A stretch of 64,000 bases of DNA from Marvania coccoides (taxonomy: Eukaryota; Chlorophyta; Trebouxiophyceae; Chlorellales; Chlorellaceae), in NCBI GenBank assembly GCA_963854735.1, contig OY978099.1:1984001-2048000 (forward strand), written 5' to 3'. The translations under genes were made by a program, and so were the position numbers. Positions within the stretch are counted from its first letter, which is position 1, and the number at the start of each line of letters is the position of its first letter. The notes under the pieces were generated by a model, which did no database searches, was not told where the DNA came from, and was given only the letters and a program-made list of their open reading frames with translations. Of this stretch, positions 6,405 through 62,556 are shown in pieces.

Positions 6405-6420
6405 TTATACTTAATATTTA
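6405..6420 (+). promoter_or_regulatory. TATA-like AT box upstream of permuted tRNA
   Basis: A TTATACTTAATATTTA stretch begins about 68 bases before the first base of the tRNA 3' half. It is a reasonable RNA polymerase III upstream element, but the assignment rests only on position and AT content. Confidence 0.3.
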
Positions 6421-6472
6421 CATACAAATGGGTTTGTGGCACTCTCCAACGCCCGTGCCTCATGGGAATGCT

Positions 6473-6559
6473 AGCCGTTGGGGCAACCCGCGCAGGTTCG
6501 AATCCTGCAGGCAACGCTGCTTGTTGCTTTGCCAGAGTGGTTAATGGGGCGGCCTGCTA
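6473..6559 (+). tRNA. trnS(GCU): Circularly permuted tRNA-Ser(GCU) gene
   Basis: The 3' half comes first. A6473 is position 38; 6474-6478 is the anticodon 3' stem; 6480-6489 is the long variable arm (GGG, GCAA loop, CCC); 6492-6508 is a perfect T arm (GCAGG, TTCGAAT, CCTGC); 6509-6515 is the acceptor 3' strand; G6516 is the discriminator. After a 6-base spacer comes the 5' half: acceptor GTTGCTT at 6523-6529; U8 and G9; D arm CCA/TGG with loop GAGTGGTTAA (6532-6547); G6548 is position 26; anticodon 5' stem GCGGC (6549-6553); loop CTGCTA with anticodon GCT (6556-6558) ending at 6559. Joined in tRNA order, all seven acceptor pairs form (one G-U), as do all five anticodon-stem pairs (one G-U), giving an 81-nt serine tRNA with the expected long variable arm and G73. 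No 5' half lies upstream, so the gene is permuted rather than merely intron-containing. The join falls at 37/38, the usual intron site. A TGCTA repeat at both joints and a possible ATGG/CCAT helix (6462-6465 with 6560-6563) may guide splicing. Confidence 0.88.
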
Positions 6560-6564
6560 CCATC

Positions 6565-6569
6565 TTTTT
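6565..6569 (+). terminator. Pol III T5 terminator
   Basis: A run of five T starts five bases after the last base of the tRNA 5' half. Its position directly behind the permuted gene, not behind the 3' half, supports transcription of the whole unit as one precursor. Confidence 0.6.
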
Positions 6570-10860: not shown

Positions 10861-12138
10861 ATGAAATCGCGAACAGTGATAATTTTGCTCGCATTCTGCA
10901 GCGCAATATATGCTATCACTCGCCTCGATGTCTATAGAGACCGTGAAACTGTCAATTATTTAAGATTAGCATTCAATACGAGTGCCTTTCAAGTTTCAGT
11001 ATTGGTTGATTCAAATAATACCTGGGGGAGTATTGTTCGAGGACGATATGAAATTTGTTGTGGTCCCGGGTCCTCGACAGTCAGGAGTCAGTATGCCACT
11101 CTTATGTTTTTAATTGACTATTTCCAAAATTCTGTGTATTATACGCCTGATGTTTCGGCAGCTGACATTGTGCTTATCCCCTTCTCCCCTTTTTACCATG
11201 GCTATCATGTTGATTATAACAAAAAAATGCTTTTAAAGGAATTGCCATCTGCCGGTGCGGCGTATATTACAGCGTTGAAAGCAGTGAAAAAATCAGCCCA
11301 CATAGTCATCGTTAATTCTGTAGTTCCAGAATACAAGTTCATCAAGGATTATTTCCTCAGGTATATTGAAAGCGACTTTCATCGTAGGATTATAATGCTT
11401 CGTATTGATTATGGGGACACGGTTTGTAATTGTTATGGAACAGGATATGACCCATCTGATACAATTGAAAATATAGCAGTGCCATATGCAGTATTTCAAC
11501 CTGAAAAACTCACAACACGAGGCGCATGGCGAGATCTTAAAACGCCACGTGAAAACTTACTTTTTTTTAAAGGGCGGAGGAATGGCTCTGGCAGAATGGC
11601 ACTTCTTTCATCTTTCCAGATTGGAAATAGGACAGATATTGCTGTATCCTTAGACGATTCAATGAGCCACGAAATTTATGTTGATAATCTATTTAAATCC
11701 AAATTTTGTCTTGTGCCTGAAGGCCATACTACCACGTCCTCGCGTCTGTTCGAATCACTTGCAGCTGAATGTGTGCCAGTTATTATCAGCACATGCATAG
11801 ATTTGCCGTTTGAAGGTATGAGCCCAATAGAGGACTATTCCCTGTTTGCAGTATTTTTTCCTACATCAACAAATGCTGAAGCAATCATCAGGCATTTGGA
11901 TGCTTTGGTCTCGTCAGGTATTTATGGAAAGTTGCGTGTTAAATTGAGTACTGTTTGGGAGCATTTTATCATGCGAAATGCAACTATCGGAGAAAATTCC
12001 AGCACTGATGTTATATTTAAGGCCATAATGGAAACCTCATCGATGATGCAGCAGAACAAAAGCAGTTGGTCTAGTGCAAGCGATAAACGCAAGCGTGCTG
12101 TTGCATGCTCTGGTCCCTTTCCAAAATCAATGGCTTAA
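10861..12138 (+). CDS. Exostosin-like (GT47) glycosyltransferase
   Basis: An intact single-exon frame of 425 codons. An N-terminal hydrophobic segment (about residues 5-19) fits a signal anchor or signal peptide, so a Golgi lumen location is inferred. The GT47/exostosin signature is clear: LLFFKGRR near residue 235, then SKFCLVPEGHTTTSSRLFESL and CVPVIISTCIDLPFEG at about 280-319. GT47 enzymes transfer sugars from nucleotide sugars to growing polysaccharides. Donor and acceptor cannot be told from sequence. Length is normal for plant and algal GT47 proteins. It is AT-rich, unlike the GC-rich elements on both sides, and has no in-frame disruptions. The first ATG gives a sensible N-terminus. 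Nearest neighbours are repeats, so regulation is not visible. The assignment to GT47 is firm; the substrate is unknown. Confidence 0.88.
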   Translation: MKSRTVIILLAFCSAIYAITRLDVYRDRETVNYLRLAFNTSAFQVSVLVDSNNTWGSIVRGRYEICCGPGSSTVRSQYATLMFLIDYFQNSVYYTPDVSAADIVLIPFSPFYHGYHVDYNKKMLLKELPSAGAAYITALKAVKKSAHIVIVNSVVPEYKFIKDYFLRYIESDFHRRIIMLRIDYGDTVCNCYGTGYDPSDTIENIAVPYAVFQPEKLTTRGAWRDLKTPRENLLFFKGRRNGSGRMALLSSFQIGNRTDIAVSLDDSMSHEIYVDNLFKSKFCLVPEGHTTTSSRLFESLAAECVPVIISTCIDLPFEGMSPIEDYSLFAVFFPTSTNAEAIIRHLDALVSSGIYGKLRVKLSTVWEHFIMRNATIGENSSTDVIFKAIMETSSMMQQNKSSWSSASDKRKRAVACSGPFPKSMA

Positions 12139-27202: not shown

Positions 27203-28444
27203 TCAGCTTATTACTCGCTTCATCATGCCAGTATAGCTAGCCAAGACATCACTCCTTATTCTTATCTCCTGTACAATCAGATCAAGAGGGCCCCCTTTCT
27301 GGACAGCAGACAAAATTGATGACGAATCAAATAAAAAATGATGGCGTGCTTTAGCAAGGTTATACTGTAACTTTTTCAATTGGACACTGTCGAATGATAG
27401 AAGCTGCTTCAATGTGGTATTCAGCTCTTTCTCAGGAACCCAGATGGTAAATTTTGAATAGTCGAGAATACCCTCGAAGGGTGCTGGCATGAAATCGTTA
27501 AATATAACAGGAATACAACCAGCCAGTATGGCTGATTGCAACCGGCGCGTAGATAGCGAAGCCCCACGTGTTATTGGACAAAAAATGCTTTTTTTCATTA
27601 TATCGCCAGCAATTGTCAAATTATATGGCGATCCTACCATAAATGGTGGGTTGCCTTTGAAAGGCGATGCAACCGCATTTAACCTATTCAGCTCTTCGAA
27701 CAGCTGCAGTCGTATTGGCTGTTGCTGTGTTGATCCAAAATACGCGCCAATATATTCTTTACAACAAAAACTGCCAAGATCACCAAAGTACGATGGATTC
27801 TGATCCCAATAAGGGATGACAATTTCCTGTCTGGTCCGTATTAAATCGACCCATGCATTTGATGAGTTCTTGGTGGGACCATTGCGGAAGGAAATAGGAT
27901 CCATGACAAGAGGTATAGCAGCAGGAAAGACAAAACTCAGTCCAAACCCAAAAAAATCAATAACAAAGTGATCAAAACCTCTTTTATTATTGTAAAACTG
28001 AAAATCGTTCATAACCATATTTTTTACTTTTTCAACACAGTTGTTTTGCAAGGGAGTGTTTATAATATTGTTGTCTTTGTGTCCCCAGTGAGGCCACATG
28101 CTGGGAATAACATATGCCATTGCAGATGATGCCGAGTTTGTTGCGGCAGGATGATATTTCAAAAATTCTGATAAAAACCACTCGGCATTAAAATGTGAAA
28201 AAGAACCCAAAGGATCCATCCACGACTTCGCCCCAGAATCATAACTTTTCTTCTCTTGAGATATCAAATTATCGAAGCATTCGGGGATTGCCTCTGTTGG
28301 GTAAATAAAAAATTTGAAATCGCGAGATTTGAACACGTCTATTCTCTGTCGCGAGAAAATATTTGCACCATAACCGGCAAAAATAAAATATGCACACGGC
28401 AGAAATAGTAGTACAAATGAATAGGATGGTAAATAATAACGCAT
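27203..28444 (-). CDS. Exostosin-like (GT47) glycosyltransferase
   Basis: An intact single-exon minus-strand gene. The frame is open to 28468 with GTG, but the first ATG at 28444 gives 413 residues and places a strong hydrophobic anchor at residues 7-24, so I choose it. FKFFIYPT near residue 43 begins the exostosin domain, and DHFVIDFFGFG lies near 158. The signature is at about 284-325: KKSIFCPITRGASLSTRRLQ, then CIPVIFNDFMPAPFEG. It differs enough from the 10.9-kb gene that the two are not recent duplicates. Role by family: transfer of a sugar from a nucleotide donor during Golgi polysaccharide synthesis. Substrate unknown. AT-rich; Helitron-like end 126 bases beyond its stop codon. Confidence 0.87.
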   Translation of the reverse strand: MRYYLPSYSFVLLFLPCAYFIFAGYGANIFSRQRIDVFKSRDFKFFIYPTEAIPECFDNLISQEKKSYDSGAKSWMDPLGSFSHFNAEWFLSEFLKYHPAATNSASSAMAYVIPSMWPHWGHKDNNIINTPLQNNCVEKVKNMVMNDFQFYNNKRGFDHFVIDFFGFGLSFVFPAAIPLVMDPISFRNGPTKNSSNAWVDLIRTRQEIVIPYWDQNPSYFGDLGSFCCKEYIGAYFGSTQQQPIRLQLFEELNRLNAVASPFKGNPPFMVGSPYNLTIAGDIMKKSIFCPITRGASLSTRRLQSAILAGCIPVIFNDFMPAPFEGILDYSKFTIWVPEKELNTTLKQLLSFDSVQLKKLQYNLAKARHHFLFDSSSILSAVQKGGPLDLIVQEIRIRSDVLASYTGMMKRVIS

Positions 28445-30053
28445 GATGGTCACAGTATGAACATTCACATAAAAACTAGATCCAATTATTCCTTCAAATA
28501 TAACAACATTTTATTTTATTTTTTTGGTTATAGTTTTCTTGGATTTAGGTCTCATTTAGGTTTCTTGGAATGAATAATTAGAGGCAAGATAAAAAGCCGG
28601 GCCCTCGAGGCCTTTGGCAGTGGCGGCGGCAATATTAAACAATTAAGTGAAGAGGGGAGCAATCAAATTATCCAGCCAGGCCCAAGTAATTCTAGAACGC
28701 AAATGGAGCGACAAATCATGAGAGGCCCCCGGCGGAAGGCCCGACCAAAAAGGGGTCCCGGACTTTTCAATTTCGATTTGCTAATACATTTTTGCAAAGG
28801 GAGTTCAAAATGCCGGGGGTTTCAACCTGGCCGCGTTAAAGCTCCTGGTTTTATTGCAACTAGCGATTTTTTCTTCTCTCGTCTCCATATCTCGTATTTG
28901 CCCTTGCATCCAACATCGATTTTCAATCTTTCATCCGAGAATATTATTCTTTTCCCTTGTCGGTACTTTCAAGAGCGTCAAATGGCTCAGATGGTCTATC
29001 GACATTCGGGCTGTCGCGTTGGTCGCCTCCTGCCCCCTGACAGCCTGCCCTTGAATATCAGCGCTCCGCATCACCGAATTTAGTAGTTCGCAGCTGTGTA
29101 GGGAGACTGGATGGCATTGGAGACCGTCGTTTCAAAAAGGCCCACATATCGCCTGCATTGACACGTAAACTGTCATTTATGAGCTTCGTCTTCAAACTAC
29201 TTGCATTGTTTGCAGGCGGCAATATTGATTGCTTCTATTGCCCTAAACACGGGCTCTAGCCAGGGTTCTTTTAGGCAAACCACATTTTCCCGCACCCAGC
29301 ATTTGTACCCGTCCACCAAAAATATTTTGGAGTGCATTTCTTCCTTATTTCCCCTAATTTATTTGCTTAACTTGCCGCTCTCTTTTAACCCTTCCTAGAG
29401 GTCGTGCACGAGAATTGCGATCAGATAACCAACACTGTGGAACCTAGTAATGTTGTATAGCGGAAATGATTCATTTGGGGCATTTAGCACCCCTCAAAAT
29501 ATAATGAAATGAAATTCTCTATAAATTTTTTGAATGTGGAAAACGAAATAAACAGCATGCCTAAATACTGTCAAGTTGCTCCAAACTACAATTCCAAGTG
29601 CGCTGACTTTTATTAGGTGTCTCAACAATTCAATGTATGTATTTGGGGGACAGAATTAAGTTAGGAAATTGCCGTACATAATTTTGTGTAGTACTATAGG
29701 TAATAGCTCGTGCAATTGGTTCACTATTAAATTTTCGCCGCAAGAACGATGATAAAATTATATACCACTTTCACTATTCTCATGTACTAGAAAGGGAAGT
29801 GTTTAATTTTCTGCGCTATGCTATAAATTTTTTATTTTAATTTGGTAAGTACCACGAAGATGCACAGTTTGTATTCTTGCAATTGTATAAAGGGCTCTTC
29901 AATGGATTTCCTGACCTTGATTGGCATTAAAAAAAGTGCATACCCACTTAGCAAAAATGTAAATGCAAATATTTAACGTTAAAAATGTCCCTTCTTAGAA
30001 GGCAAGCTCAACGAGCAGAAATTGATTTCATAACATTACAAAAAACATTAGTA
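28445..30053. other. AT-rich intergenic region
   Basis: No supportable gene or repeat relationship in 1.6 kb. The 126-codon plus frame at 28703 is not convincing. The long AT-rich stretch from 29400 to 30050 could hold regulatory sequence for the minus-strand gene on its left, but no motif stands out. Confidence 0.5.
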
Positions 30054-45152: not shown

Positions 45153-46085
45153 ATGTCCACGCTTGATCGTTTAAGACCACACAATCGAGGGAGAATTAAG
45201 TTAGGTTCATTTATTTTTTCAATTCACACACTGATGCCAGCATTCTTTCTCGCAGGATGGTTTGGACCTCACATTTTTGCTAAGCTTGCCAGCATTCATC
45301 GTCACAACTCGACTTCTGATTTCAATGCAGAATTGCAATTTTTGAAATTTGACATATCGAAATGTGATGCTGTCTATTTGGACGTGGGATCTAACATTGG
45401 CGTTCAGATTCGGAAACTTTATGACCCAGATCTTTTTCGATGGGCCTCTATAATACCTGTCTTTAATGCACATTTCGGTTCTTTTCCAAGAGAAAATGTG
45501 TGTGCAATTGGTTTCGAGCCAAATAAAGCACACACGCAATATTTGAAAGAGCTGGAGAGAAATTTGCGTTGTAGAGGGTTCCCTGTTCATATTTTCACTG
45601 AAACTGCCGTAACAACACAAGCAGCAAACCTGACATTTTATGGTGATCCAGGAGCTCCGTCGGACAGGCACGAATGGGGCGCATCATTGTTAAACTGGCA
45701 AAATCACAGTAGCGCATCTTCGATAGTGCAAGGACTGGATTTTTCACAATTTTTACTCAATATTTTAAGCAATAAAAAACAAGAAGCGCCAATTGTGATG
45801 AAATTAGACATTGAAGGAGCCGAATTCGATGTTGTTCCACATCTTATTGCATCTGGGGTTCTTTGTCAAGTTGATTTTGTTGGAATTGAGTGGCATGATT
45901 CAATTTTGAAAGCTTCGAACAAAGCTAATAATATGTCTGAGGCTGTGATTACAAATTTCATGGCAGCAATACCGAAACATGCTTGCAAAATGCAAGTTTT
46001 AACTCTTGATGACGAATCATATGGTGAGAAGGGGAAATTTATTTCTCACAAACGCTGTATTGAACCGAAATCACTATCAGAATGA
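45153..46085 (+). CDS. FkbM-like SAM-dependent methyltransferase, membrane-anchored
   Basis: An intact single-exon frame of 310 codons. A hydrophobic segment at about residues 18-36 gives a likely Golgi anchor. The Rossmann-fold motifs follow in order: VYLDVGSNIGVQIRK (74-88; SAM-binding GxxxG-like), CAIGFEPNKAHTQYLKELE (117-135; acidic Glu after motif I), and VMKLDIEGAEFDVVPHLI (215-232), the FkbM hallmark, with VDFVGIEWHDS after it. FkbM proteins typically O-methylate sugars or polyketide hydroxyls, and membrane-anchored algal versions are expected to methylate surface glycans. Length is normal. ATG chosen because the anchor follows naturally. AT-rich, undisturbed, and preceded by repeat P. 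Fold is secure; substrate is inferred only. Confidence 0.86.
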   Translation: MSTLDRLRPHNRGRIKLGSFIFSIHTLMPAFFLAGWFGPHIFAKLASIHRHNSTSDFNAELQFLKFDISKCDAVYLDVGSNIGVQIRKLYDPDLFRWASIIPVFNAHFGSFPRENVCAIGFEPNKAHTQYLKELERNLRCRGFPVHIFTETAVTTQAANLTFYGDPGAPSDRHEWGASLLNWQNHSSASSIVQGLDFSQFLLNILSNKKQEAPIVMKLDIEGAEFDVVPHLIASGVLCQVDFVGIEWHDSILKASNKANNMSEAVITNFMAAIPKHACKMQVLTLDDESYGEKGKFISHKRCIEPKSLSE

Positions 46086-55820: not shown

Positions 55821-55940
55821 AAGGACCCCCCCCCTCCCCGGGTTCCTCGACAATGTGATCTTCGAATACGAAATGTAAATCAATCCGACTCGCAATACAT
55901 ACAAAAATTGCTAGTTATAGTTTGCGGACATTATGAAACA

Positions 55941-56855
55941 ATGAGGAAAAAATCATTATTCCCGCTATCCAATCGTTGGTTTATATTAATTTTATTTTTG
56001 ACCCTCGTTTATCCTTTGCTCACGGCAAGTCGTTTGCCTTCTGTCTGCGGTTCTTTTTCTTCCAATCACGACTGGCTTGCAAGAATTCCTATCGACGCCT
56101 TGGCTCGCAAATTTTCCAGGCACAAGCTACCAAGAGTACTCTGTGCAAACTTGACACGGACTGTGCTTTCCGAAAAAAATATCACAACGGCAAGGCAGTT
56201 GTGGTTTTCATTCTTTTATAAAAAAATTGATGATACTTTTCGTAGAAATGCAGTGCCATATTGGCTTGAACGGGGTTCTCTAGTTGGATGGGCACGCGAA
56301 TGCTCAACTCTTGATCTTGACCATGATATCGATATTGGAGTTTGGTATCATCATTTTACGCCAAAATTAGCAAATGAATTGCAAGAAGAATTGTATCCGT
56401 ACTATGATTTCATGCGAACGCAGGGCTGTTATTATCCTGAACAAATTGAAAATGTGAATGATGAAATTGGAGATGCGAGATGTCTTCAGCGCTTGTGGCG
56501 ACTTGCCCCAATCTACCCTGCTGACATTCTTCCAGATTTGATAGACATTTTTTTATGGGAGACACCATATTACGCCACACATACTTTTCAGGAACCCTAT
56601 AAATCGATATTCACCTGCCATAATAATTGTACGAGACGATTTTACGCAGAAACTCATTGGAGTGTTGCACGTGCTGAAATAAATAATGTAGAAGTGCTTG
56701 TTCCCCATCCATGGGCTCGCACAGTGGCATCGCGTTTTGGCTCTGACTGGGTGGTCAGTAACAAACTTCCTGGATATGATGCAGAAGAGGGTAACTATTC
56801 GAGTACTGCAAAAACGGAAGTTACTGCGAATGTCAGCGAGCTTGTCACTATATAA
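55941..56855 (+). CDS. LicD/fukutin-like nucleotidyl- or phospho-sugar transferase
   Basis: An intact single-exon gene. The frame is open to a TTG at 55908, but the first ATG at 55941 yields 304 residues with a hydrophobic anchor at 14-29, so I use that. YWLERGSLVGWARECST (107-123) followed by LDLDHDIDIGVWYHHF (124-139) is the LicD/fukutin signature: an aromatic-Leu-x-x-G-x-L-x-G block and then a D-x-D-x-D metal site, as in bacterial phosphocholine transferases and the animal ribitol-phosphate transferases. PDLIDIFLW lies near 204 and HPWARTVASRFG follows near 265. Likely role: transfer of a phospho-linked group to a Golgi glycan. Cargo unknown. AT-rich and intact, in contrast to the Ty3 fragments beside it. 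Confidence 0.83.
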   Translation: MRKKSLFPLSNRWFILILFLTLVYPLLTASRLPSVCGSFSSNHDWLARIPIDALARKFSRHKLPRVLCANLTRTVLSEKNITTARQLWFSFFYKKIDDTFRRNAVPYWLERGSLVGWARECSTLDLDHDIDIGVWYHHFTPKLANELQEELYPYYDFMRTQGCYYPEQIENVNDEIGDARCLQRLWRLAPIYPADILPDLIDIFLWETPYYATHTFQEPYKSIFTCHNNCTRRFYAETHWSVARAEINNVEVLVPHPWARTVASRFGSDWVVSNKLPGYDAEEGNYSSTAKTEVTANVSELVTI

Positions 56856-60384: not shown

Positions 60385-62556
60385 TCAGCACTCTAGTGCA
60401 TAGAGAAACGCTCGTAGACCAAAACTGCTTGATGTTTTCATGGGATGAACTGTTTGCATTGATTTATCCTTGCAAAAATCATCTGCTGTCAAGAAAAAAT
60501 TGGAACGGCGCCCATCCAGCCTGGTAAGGAGGGTATATTCAGGAGCATTCGGAATAAAACATGCAATCAGTGTTGGAACAGCACATTCTAAATGCAATCC
60601 TGCCGAAAGAAATTGTGTAGCATACTCCGACATAATTTCAATATCCTGGCGTGTAAGAAGGAAAAAATCAGCCTGCGATGCATACCATTGTATCTGCGTA
60701 TTATGATGACAAGATATATTATTTATTTTTCTTTTCAGCGACTCAATAGGAGCATCTACCCATTCTCGTATAATTTGATTCGAATTGATAGCCTCCTTGG
60801 AGCGAACAATGCGCTCAGCTGACGTCGATTTGCCAGATTCCAGCATGGCATGAAGCTCATTTTTTCGAATGGCAAAATCTTCATGCGAAAATAAATACTT
60901 ATTATAACTACGAGAATGCGACCATGCATGGAAAATGCTTTCATAAGCAAGGAATCCTGCTGTATCTTTGCTTATACAGTTGAACGACAGGCCAGCAATT
61001 CGAGGACAAGGGCCGCTACTGGGTGTGTAGAATGCAACATGTTCGAACTCTGGGTAAATAGCCCGCCATATGGGCGCATTTTCGCCATGTTCCCAATTTA
61101 TGTGGACAACAGCCAACGTGTCATTACCAGCCGCGGGGGATTGTATGTAAGTTGGGTATGGAGGGTTACTTGGAATGGGGGGAGAATAACCACTTTTACG
61201 GAGAGCCCTCGACCACAAGGCAAAAGCTTTCATTTCTCCCTCAAAATTTCCATCGAACAAACCATACTGCGACGCATTTCCATAAATATATAGCATCGCT
61301 TTCAATGCATCATCGACACTTGAGATGTTCTTAAATTTATCAATAAAGTTAATGAGCTCGCGACTTCTTGCATAGAGAGGTGCTTCTGCATCTAAATCAG
61401 CCAAGTAATTGTGATTGTTGCGCTTATGCATAATATCAGGACTAGCAAATGCCACGATGCCTGAAATTCTCGATAAAATTGCCTGACAAAGGTATCCTCG
61501 CCAAATATCGCTCACACGGCCATGAACTGTGTGGGGAAGGTATAGGCAAAATGAAGCTCGACGAGAAAAAATTGTTGATTGGGCATTAAATGGCGTTGAT
61601 TTCTGGGGGTCAATACCTAAAAGTGCAGCATTTTTTAAACTCTTGCTTGTGGACCAGCGTGTTGGAATCTTATTTTGTAATCGCCAGATTGCATCCACAT
61701 CAGCATCAATCGATTGCAAAATCTGCACTATTTCAACTGTAAAGTTTAAATCAAGAGCATTTTTGGTAGAATGAAGAGATGGGAAGGGTTTTCTAACCAA
61801 ATAATCAATAGGATAACCACGAGGCCAAGAATAATCTTGAGGTCCATACATAACATAGGGATTGACAGCATTTTCGTAAGACGACAGCACTCCAACTGGT
61901 TGAAGAGTTGCTAATTCTGCACCATTATTCAACTTCTGAAGAATTGGCACAGAGGAGGAAAAATTATCGTCATCAAAATCAAAGATATGGCAAGCTCCTA
62001 GAGCGATGGCGTGCAGATATCCAATGTTTTTTCTAGCAAAACTGCGCAAAGGGAGCGCTTCTGAAATTTCACGATAAAGAATATTTTGTTGCTTAATATC
62101 AAGGTAGTGAACACGGCCTTTTATTGTTTCCCGAGTAGTGGTGTAGGGTGCACTGTCAATATCACCAACGATCACTACTTCTGTGTTATTATACTCTTCC
62201 AAAAAAGAGTCAACAGCTGGAAGATCAGCCTTAAGACTTGTGACAACGCCTATCAGGGGCACAGTGCAATTCGCATCAGAAATTGTAGAGGAGCTGCTGT
62301 CAGCAGCAATTCGCTGAAAGGCTCGAACTGATCTTGGATCAAGCCCGTTCGGTATTGGAGCTGCCATTGAGAAGACATGTCCAGTTGTTGGAGAATCATG
62401 CTTGGCATCAATTATCGAGCGCAGACTAGAAAATAAAGGGATCCTATAAAATATATCATTTGCAAATAAAGCTTGCGAAATAGACAATGCAAAGAAAAAT
62501 GCAGCGAAGAATACGGCTAATGTGGTCTTTGTCTTTAAATGCTGTACGTCGTCCAT
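60385..62556 (-). CDS. STELLO (DUF288)-like two-domain glycosyltransferase
   Basis: An intact single-exon frame of 723 codons, the longest clean ORF in the window. A hydrophobic anchor lies at residues 12-33. The first domain follows: VPLIGVVTSLKADLPAVDSF (about 99-118), VVIVGD, then LPLRSFARKNIGYLHAIALG (168-187) and ACHIFDFDDDNFS (188-200). The FARKNIGYL...FDFDDDN combination is the hallmark of STELLO/DUF288 proteins, in which the Asp run binds metal and nucleotide sugar. PRGYPIDYLVRKPFPSL and VSDIWRGYLCQAIL continue the same family pattern. The second domain (about 470-723) includes PEFEHVAFYTPSSGPCPRIA and YLFSHEDFAIRKNEL, again GT-A-like. In Arabidopsis, STELLO proteins are Golgi-resident and affect cellulose synthase complexes. 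The role here is unknown, probably another surface polysaccharide. The ATG at 62556 is unambiguous. Confidence 0.88.
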   Translation of the reverse strand: MDDVQHLKTKTTLAVFFAAFFFALSISQALFANDIFYRIPLFSSLRSIIDAKHDSPTTGHVFSMAAPIPNGLDPRSVRAFQRIAADSSSSTISDANCTVPLIGVVTSLKADLPAVDSFLEEYNNTEVVIVGDIDSAPYTTTRETIKGRVHYLDIKQQNILYREISEALPLRSFARKNIGYLHAIALGACHIFDFDDDNFSSSVPILQKLNNGAELATLQPVGVLSSYENAVNPYVMYGPQDYSWPRGYPIDYLVRKPFPSLHSTKNALDLNFTVEIVQILQSIDADVDAIWRLQNKIPTRWSTSKSLKNAALLGIDPQKSTPFNAQSTIFSRRASFCLYLPHTVHGRVSDIWRGYLCQAILSRISGIVAFASPDIMHKRNNHNYLADLDAEAPLYARSRELINFIDKFKNISSVDDALKAMLYIYGNASQYGLFDGNFEGEMKAFALWSRALRKSGYSPPIPSNPPYPTYIQSPAAGNDTLAVVHINWEHGENAPIWRAIYPEFEHVAFYTPSSGPCPRIAGLSFNCISKDTAGFLAYESIFHAWSHSRSYNKYLFSHEDFAIRKNELHAMLESGKSTSAERIVRSKEAINSNQIIREWVDAPIESLKRKINNISCHHNTQIQWYASQADFFLLTRQDIEIMSEYATQFLSAGLHLECAVPTLIACFIPNAPEYTLLTRLDGRRSNFFLTADDFCKDKSMQTVHPMKTSSSFGLRAFLYALEC

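Follow-up and report, generated by a model that had tools for sequence, protein, structure and literature searches.

A probable circularly permuted tRNA-Ser(GCU) gene in Marvania coccoides, one of at least fourteen permuted tRNA genes in the nuclear genome of this green alga

The window analysed here is a stretch of 64,000 nucleotides of the Marvania coccoides genome (contig C3, OY978099.1, positions 1984001–2048000; assembly GCA_963854735.1). It carries the two halves of a serine tRNA in swapped order, with the 3′ half lying ahead of the 5′ half on the same strand. The features of the locus are as follows, in window coordinates:

6405..6418, + strand: AT-rich stretch, ∼55–68 nt upstream of the gene
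6462..6472, + strand: end of the leader, ATGGGAATGCT
6462–6465 and 6560–6563: ATGG of the leader and CCAT of the trailer, which can pair
6469–6473 and 6555–6559, + strand: TGCTA repeat
6470: G at leader position −3, whose pairing with C32, the expected anticodon–intron pair, is possible
6473..6516, + strand: 3′ half of tRNA-Ser(GCU), 44 nt, positions 38–73, with the long variable arm, the T arm and G73
6495..6505, + strand: B box GGTTCGAATCC in the T arm, upstream of the A box
6517..6522, + strand: spacer CTGCTT between the halves, 6 nt, its role taken from the published model (PMC3978253)
6523..6559, + strand: 5′ half of tRNA-Ser(GCU), 37 nt, positions 1–37, with anticodon GCT at 6556–6558
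6530..6540, + strand: A box TGCCAGAGTGG, positions 8–18, downstream of the B box
6560..6564, + strand: trailer CCATC, following position 37
6565..6569, + strand: T5 run, presumed Pol III terminator

When the halves are rejoined at 37/38, they give a complete 81-nt tRNA-Ser(GCU) with anticodon GCU and discriminator G73, in which all pairs are formed in the acceptor (7/7, one G-U), D (3/3), anticodon (5/5, one G-U) and T (5/5) stems, and the variable arm is 13 nt long. ARAGORN identifies the rejoined 81-mer as tRNA-Ser(gct), and it reports no tRNA in the window as it stands, also with the intron search on. The gene had been proposed in a first-pass annotation made from the letters of the window; every coordinate given there for the halves and the 6-nt spacer holds, and the stem counts, G73, the anticodon, the position of the B box ahead of the A box and the T5 run after the 5′ half are likewise upheld. 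The arrangement is that of a type II (37/38) permuted gene, with the 3′ half upstream, on the same strand and separated by 6 nt, and the ordinary intron-containing layout, in which the 5′ half precedes the 3′ half, does not occur at this locus. Minimum-energy folding returns the cloverleaf both for the rejoined RNA and for the 87-nt circular precursor. For the linear precursor, leader included, the optimal fold without constraints differs from the full cloverleaf, and we therefore infer the fold of the precursor.

A scanner of our own, built for the permuted 37/38 layout only, scores the locus at 22.2 and reports no other place in the window. In 3,000 dinucleotide shuffles of the window (192 Mb) the scanner found 5 matches, the best at 20.4 and none reaching 22.2, and 150 shuffles of the window gave no match. 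For R2, a covariance model of the permuted fold, the training set was 19 ordinary tRNAs from this genome, organellar and nuclear, that were permuted in silico, with no permuted gene among them. The model scores the locus at 43.6 bits (E 3.8e-12), with a match that spans 6486–6559 only because the model is without the long variable arm, the anticodon 3′ strand being placed inside it. The match is evidence for the T, acceptor and D arms and for their swapped order, not for the anticodon stem. The training set of a further model, R1, contains the Ser(GCU) gene itself as well as Ser(AGA), so its score of 62.2 bits at the locus is circular.

The assembly comprises 22,462,713 bases in 15 contigs, C3 and C9 having 2,312,286 and 1,288,597 bases, respectively. 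C14 (49,038 bp) and C15 (99,873 bp) are organelle contigs, with mitochondrial genes and green-plastid genes such as rbcL. The genome note on M. coccoides CCAP 251/1B describes 13 chromosomes, among them chromosome 3 at 2.31 Mb and chromosome 9 at 1.29 Mb, and organelles of 49.04 and 99.87 kb (PMC11833223); its main text contains no word starting with ‘tRNA’. A DNA search with the Ser(GCU) locus led to another permuted gene, that for Ser(AGA) at C3:117.6k, in which the spacer measures 71 nt. Altogether, at least 14 well-formed permuted tRNA genes were found on seven chromosomes, each joined at 37/38, the sole junction sought. The twelve further members, recovered with T-arm patterns, are Leu(CAG), Glu(CTC), Arg(CCT), Ala(CGC), Thr(CGT), Arg(TCG), Asn(GTT), Phe(GAA), Thr(TGT), Arg(CCG), Ile(AAT) and Arg(TCT); by amino acid the set therefore holds two Ser, one Leu, one Glu, one Ala, two Thr, one Ile, one Phe, one Asn and four Arg genes. 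Across the set, spacer length varies between 6 and 71 nt and the scanner score between 21.8 and 23.6. ARAGORN assigns the stated anticodon to each of the 14 sequences once rejoined, and reports none of the 14 genes in place.

At least 17 ordinary nuclear tRNA genes were found, seven of them intronless (Val TAC, Gln CTG, Met CAT, Gly TCC, Glu TTC, Asp GTC and Ala AGC) and ten with introns (Cys GCA, Lys CTT twice, Ser CGA, Ser TGA, Arg ACG, His GTG, Pro CGG, and L059 and L088, ordinary genes without a settled anticodon). The two Lys(CTT) genes, Ser(CGA) and Ser(TGA) were read by eye, ARAGORN having misplaced or missed their introns. Permuted genes thus account for 14 of the 31 nuclear tRNA genes found. 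Both the 14 and the 17 are lower bounds because other T-arm sequences and other junctions lie outside the search. Three T-arm patterns matched 128 nuclear places (31 + 55 + 42), of which 115 were read, the remainder being 13 places with C at position 59 (5 and 8). A pattern for the Ser 5′ half gave 15 nuclear places, with 4 one-mismatch places left out, and a wider T-arm pattern, which counted 253 places, was not used for counts. Introns occur in 10 of the 17 ordinary genes, and continuous intronless genes are a minority, 7 of the 31 found.

Three additional loci were left uncounted. L104 (C2:2868781-2869061, 122–204; 49.9 bits with R1, 52.1 with R2) and L122 (C9:367618-367898, 79–156; 27.2 and 24.3 bits) have no sound anticodon stem or T33, and may be permuted genes in decay or a variant that carries an additional intron. 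At L065 (C9:405850-406200) a Ser/Leu-like 5′ half stands directly before a T14 run followed by GC, with no 3′ half in the stretches examined; this is possibly an orphan half or a gene with a long spacer. With default filters and E 0.01, R2 does not list Ser(AGA) (L003) or Arg(CCT) (L073), and matches Arg(TCT) (L130) partially at 18.8 bits; R1 with filters off gives 44.9 bits at L073 and partial matches at L003 (26.0) and L130 (29.3). The spacers of these three genes are 54–71 nt, and both models also give 18–26 bits at ordinary genes and tandem fragments.

The serine codons AGC and AGU require a GCU anticodon, and they are in use, making up 48 of 1,883 codons in four ORFs of the window. An ordinary tRNA-Ser(GCU) gene elsewhere, set beforehand in the first-pass annotation as the finding to count against the permuted gene, did not turn up: a DNA similarity search, which a diverged or intron-split gene could escape, found no continuous Ser(GCU) copy, and the rejoined query matched only its own halves, Ser(CGA) and Ser(AGA) (E up to 10). 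Nor were ordinary Phe or Asn copies found, the rejoined Phe and Asn sequences matching their own halves only. As Ser(GCU), Phe and Asn were encountered solely in permuted form, the cell would depend on its permuted genes, unless a diverged gene was missed.

A run of four or more T starts 2–8 nt after position 37 in all 14 permuted genes, against a background of 0.117; one of the 17 ordinary genes has no T run within 40 nt. GC comes after the run in 9 of 14 permuted genes and, among the 16 ordinary genes that have a run, in 8 (window background 75 of 904 runs), and the presence of GC in both classes indicates one terminator signature common to permuted and ordinary genes. For the two classes combined, 17 of the 30 genes that have a run show this T4+ and GC pattern, perhaps reflecting extended Pol III termination or a downstream signal. 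The AT box that the first-pass annotation had noted is present upstream of the Ser(GCU) gene, but a promoter role finds no support in the gene set, in which a TATA-like or AT box within 70 nt upstream is not enriched (3 of 14 permuted genes and 1 of 15 ordinary ones; background 0.09; <45 nt of upstream sequence was available for at least 3 of the ordinary genes).

The same annotation had linked leader and trailer through ATGG and CCAT; these can pair, but the set lends the idea no support, since leaders pair no better with their own trailers than with those of other genes (RNA duplex energies, true against exchanged pairs, p 0.69, 0.11, 0.10 and 0.24). The longest helix between anticodon and leader was also null over the set (p 0.41). 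In the relaxed bulge-helix-bulge of intron-containing pre-tRNAs, the anticodon loop from position 32 pairs with the intron from its third-last base. A register test, run after these null pairing tests, took its register from this geometry and read the leader as the 3′ end of an intron. Position by position, the best of 16 position-offset pairs reached p 0.02. Leader positions −3 to −6 against 32–35 (offset 0) gave 37 of 56 pairs versus 28.6 with exchanged leaders (p 0.0017), and 28 versus 18.6 when only Watson-Crick pairs were allowed (p 0.0011). Register +1, next to it, is likewise elevated (p 0.007 and 0.004), and the other 12 of the 14 registers tested (four-pair helix, two pairing rules) are null; corrected for 14 registers, offset 0 retains p of about 0.015–0.024. 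At least three of the four pairs are formed in 10 of the 14 permuted genes, and one of four, C32 with the G at 6470, in the Ser(GCU) gene. Over the set, leaders thus pair with the anticodon loop in the splicing-endonuclease register more than exchanged leaders do, and weakly so in the Ser(GCU) gene. Two places in the genome match PF01974, the family of the splicing endonuclease: C8:109105, with 63 bits, and C2:1933454, with 53 bits.

With respect to origin, TGCTA is indeed repeated at both joints, as the first-pass annotation had pointed out, but its further reading as a scar of tandem duplication was rejected, as the repeat occurs in 1 of 14 permuted genes. Tandem copies are present at two other permuted loci. 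At Leu(CAG) (L063; C2:846400-847000, 228–420) there is a second, truncated unit with 89% identity over 93 columns, whose 3′ half lacks the variable arm and its part of the anticodon stem. At Ala(CGC) (L083/L092; C6:847000-847600) a 62-bp tandem repeat, 98% identical over 62 bases, holds a second 5′ half and T run and no second 3′ half. Duplication therefore happens at such loci; the copies show the duplication of permuted genes, not the making of one.

Judged on the DNA and its folds, the locus is best explained as a functional nuclear gene for tRNA-Ser(GCU) in circularly permuted form, and probably no other nuclear gene supplies this tRNA; we put the probability of this explanation at about 0.9. 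In such a gene, Pol III would transcribe the leader, the 3′ half, the 6-nt spacer, the 5′ half and the trailer, and stop at the T5 run. To the tRNA-splicing endonuclease, leader and trailer would look like the ends of an intron, and the enzyme would cut just ahead of position 38 and just behind position 37. Ligation of the halves would give a circular pre-tRNA that is predicted to fold into a cloverleaf whose acceptor stem is closed by the spacer. The spacer would then be released by RNase P and tRNase Z, CCA added, and the product presumably charged.

A rearranged pseudogene, that is, a dead Ser tRNA copy shuffled by recombination near transposable elements while a working Ser(GCU) gene persists elsewhere, would accord with the LINE copies nearby, with the truncated tandem copies at two other permuted loci and with the weak splice-register pairing of this gene. 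The locus shows no decay, however, as all stems are intact and both G73 and the T run are present; the absence of another Ser(GCU) gene from the search results speaks in the same direction. Thirteen further intact genes share the layout, among them those for Phe and Asn, of which the search gave no ordinary copy, so that a lone rearranged pseudogene is very unlikely. The gene lies ∼0.9 kb past the end of the nearest LINE copy, in sequence that is unrepeated within the window. With that distance, and with permuted tRNAs published for the class of the host, the earlier description of such a gene as unusual in a TE-rich region has to be weakened.

Chance juxtaposition, or a scanner call built from the inner halves of two neighbouring ordinary tRNA genes, deserved attention because the scanner does report this artefact in both organelles, where its false calls are pairs of abutting whole tRNA genes. 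No ordinary tRNA, and hence no such abutting pair, is present in the window by ARAGORN with the intron search on, none of the 3,000 shuffles reaches the score, and there is no second copy of either half nearby; these results refute the reading, to which we assign a negligible probability. An assembly error that rotated an ordinary gene is just as implausible, as it would have to recur at 14 loci on seven chromosomes with the same junction and T run, and the same gene form has been published in another trebouxiophyte, Auxenochlorella (PMC12636532). A split tRNA, with halves transcribed separately and joined in trans, might be suggested by junction pairing that over the set is only partly as expected; the spacer of just 6 nt and the placement of the T run after the 5′ half, not after the 3′ half, make this highly improbable, though marginally less so than misassembly.

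Permuted tRNAs are known from one archaeon. They are also known from Cyanidioschyzon, prasinophytes (PMC3978253), nucleomorphs (PMC4494063) and Auxenochlorella (PMC12636532); to 2014, 34 permuted genes were recorded, with a maximum of 11 per genome and intervening sequences of 1–74 bp (PMC3978253). Among the closest counterparts, by description, is the permuted Ser(GCT) of Micromonas pusilla, listed in Table 1 of PMC3978253 with credit to Maruyama et al. 2010, which is of the same isoacceptor, joined at 37/38 (type II) and without an extra intron, although its spacer is 15 bp versus 6 bp in Marvania and the host is a prasinophyte rather than a trebouxiophyte (PMC3978253). Auxenochlorella UTEX 250-A, of another genus, is likewise a trebouxiophyte, in which the tRNAscan-SE set was incomplete and permuted genes were then detected (PMC12636532, PMC12633428). 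In Cyanidioschyzon merolae, too, the 3′ half comes first and a T stretch follows the 5′ half (Soma et al. 2007, via PMC3978253), and passage of its permuted tRNAs through circular RNA has been shown (PMC3978253). In that alga 11 of 43 genes are permuted, junctions lie at several positions, and TATA-like boxes precede most of the genes (PMC3978253); in Marvania the count is 14 of 31 found, all junctions are at 37/38, the sole junction scanned, and no TATA-like box is enriched. The nucleomorphs of Bigelowiella natans and Amorphochlora amoebiformis, which are of green-algal origin, also have permuted Ser genes, two per genome, Ser(AGA) and Ser(CGA) (PMC4494063), with B. natans junctions at 37/38 (PMC3978253); in Marvania, by contrast, Ser(AGA) is permuted and Ser(CGA) is ordinary with an intron. 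Among the papers listed by full-text literature searches, which covered few subscription papers, none dealt with permuted tRNAs of Marvania, Picochlorum, Nannochloris or Chlorella.

The permuted Ser(GCU) gene is thus of a type already known, and the surprise is its extent in Marvania. From the genes found, it is likely that Marvania relies on permuted genes for close to half of its nuclear tRNAs, or for an even larger share, including amino acids without another nuclear tRNA; this would be the largest set in one genome in the literature consulted (11 in C. merolae, Auxenochlorella being outside the comparison), with swapped A and B boxes probably transcribed without a conserved TATA box. Permuted tRNA genes have so far been treated as rare curiosities, and here they form almost half of those found; when green algal genomes are annotated for tRNAs by standard means, such genes can be missed. 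In a cultured alga with a chromosome-level genome, the start of Pol III on a B box that precedes the A box becomes testable, as do the recognition of leader and trailer as intron ends and a possible spread of permutation by tandem duplication.

As to the surroundings of the locus, the GC content of the window is 48% versus 54% for chromosome 3 (PMC11833223). The window holds intronless glycan-type genes between LINE copies, and five of the eight non-LINE ORFs scanned match Pfam, the other three matching nothing:

10861–12138 and 27203–28468: GT47 exostosin (Pfam)
45153–46085: FkbM methyltransferase (Pfam)
55908–56855: LicD (Pfam, below cut-off)
60385–62556: STELLO (Pfam)

Prasinophytes have outlier chromosomes with glycan genes, and the Marvania window recalls them.
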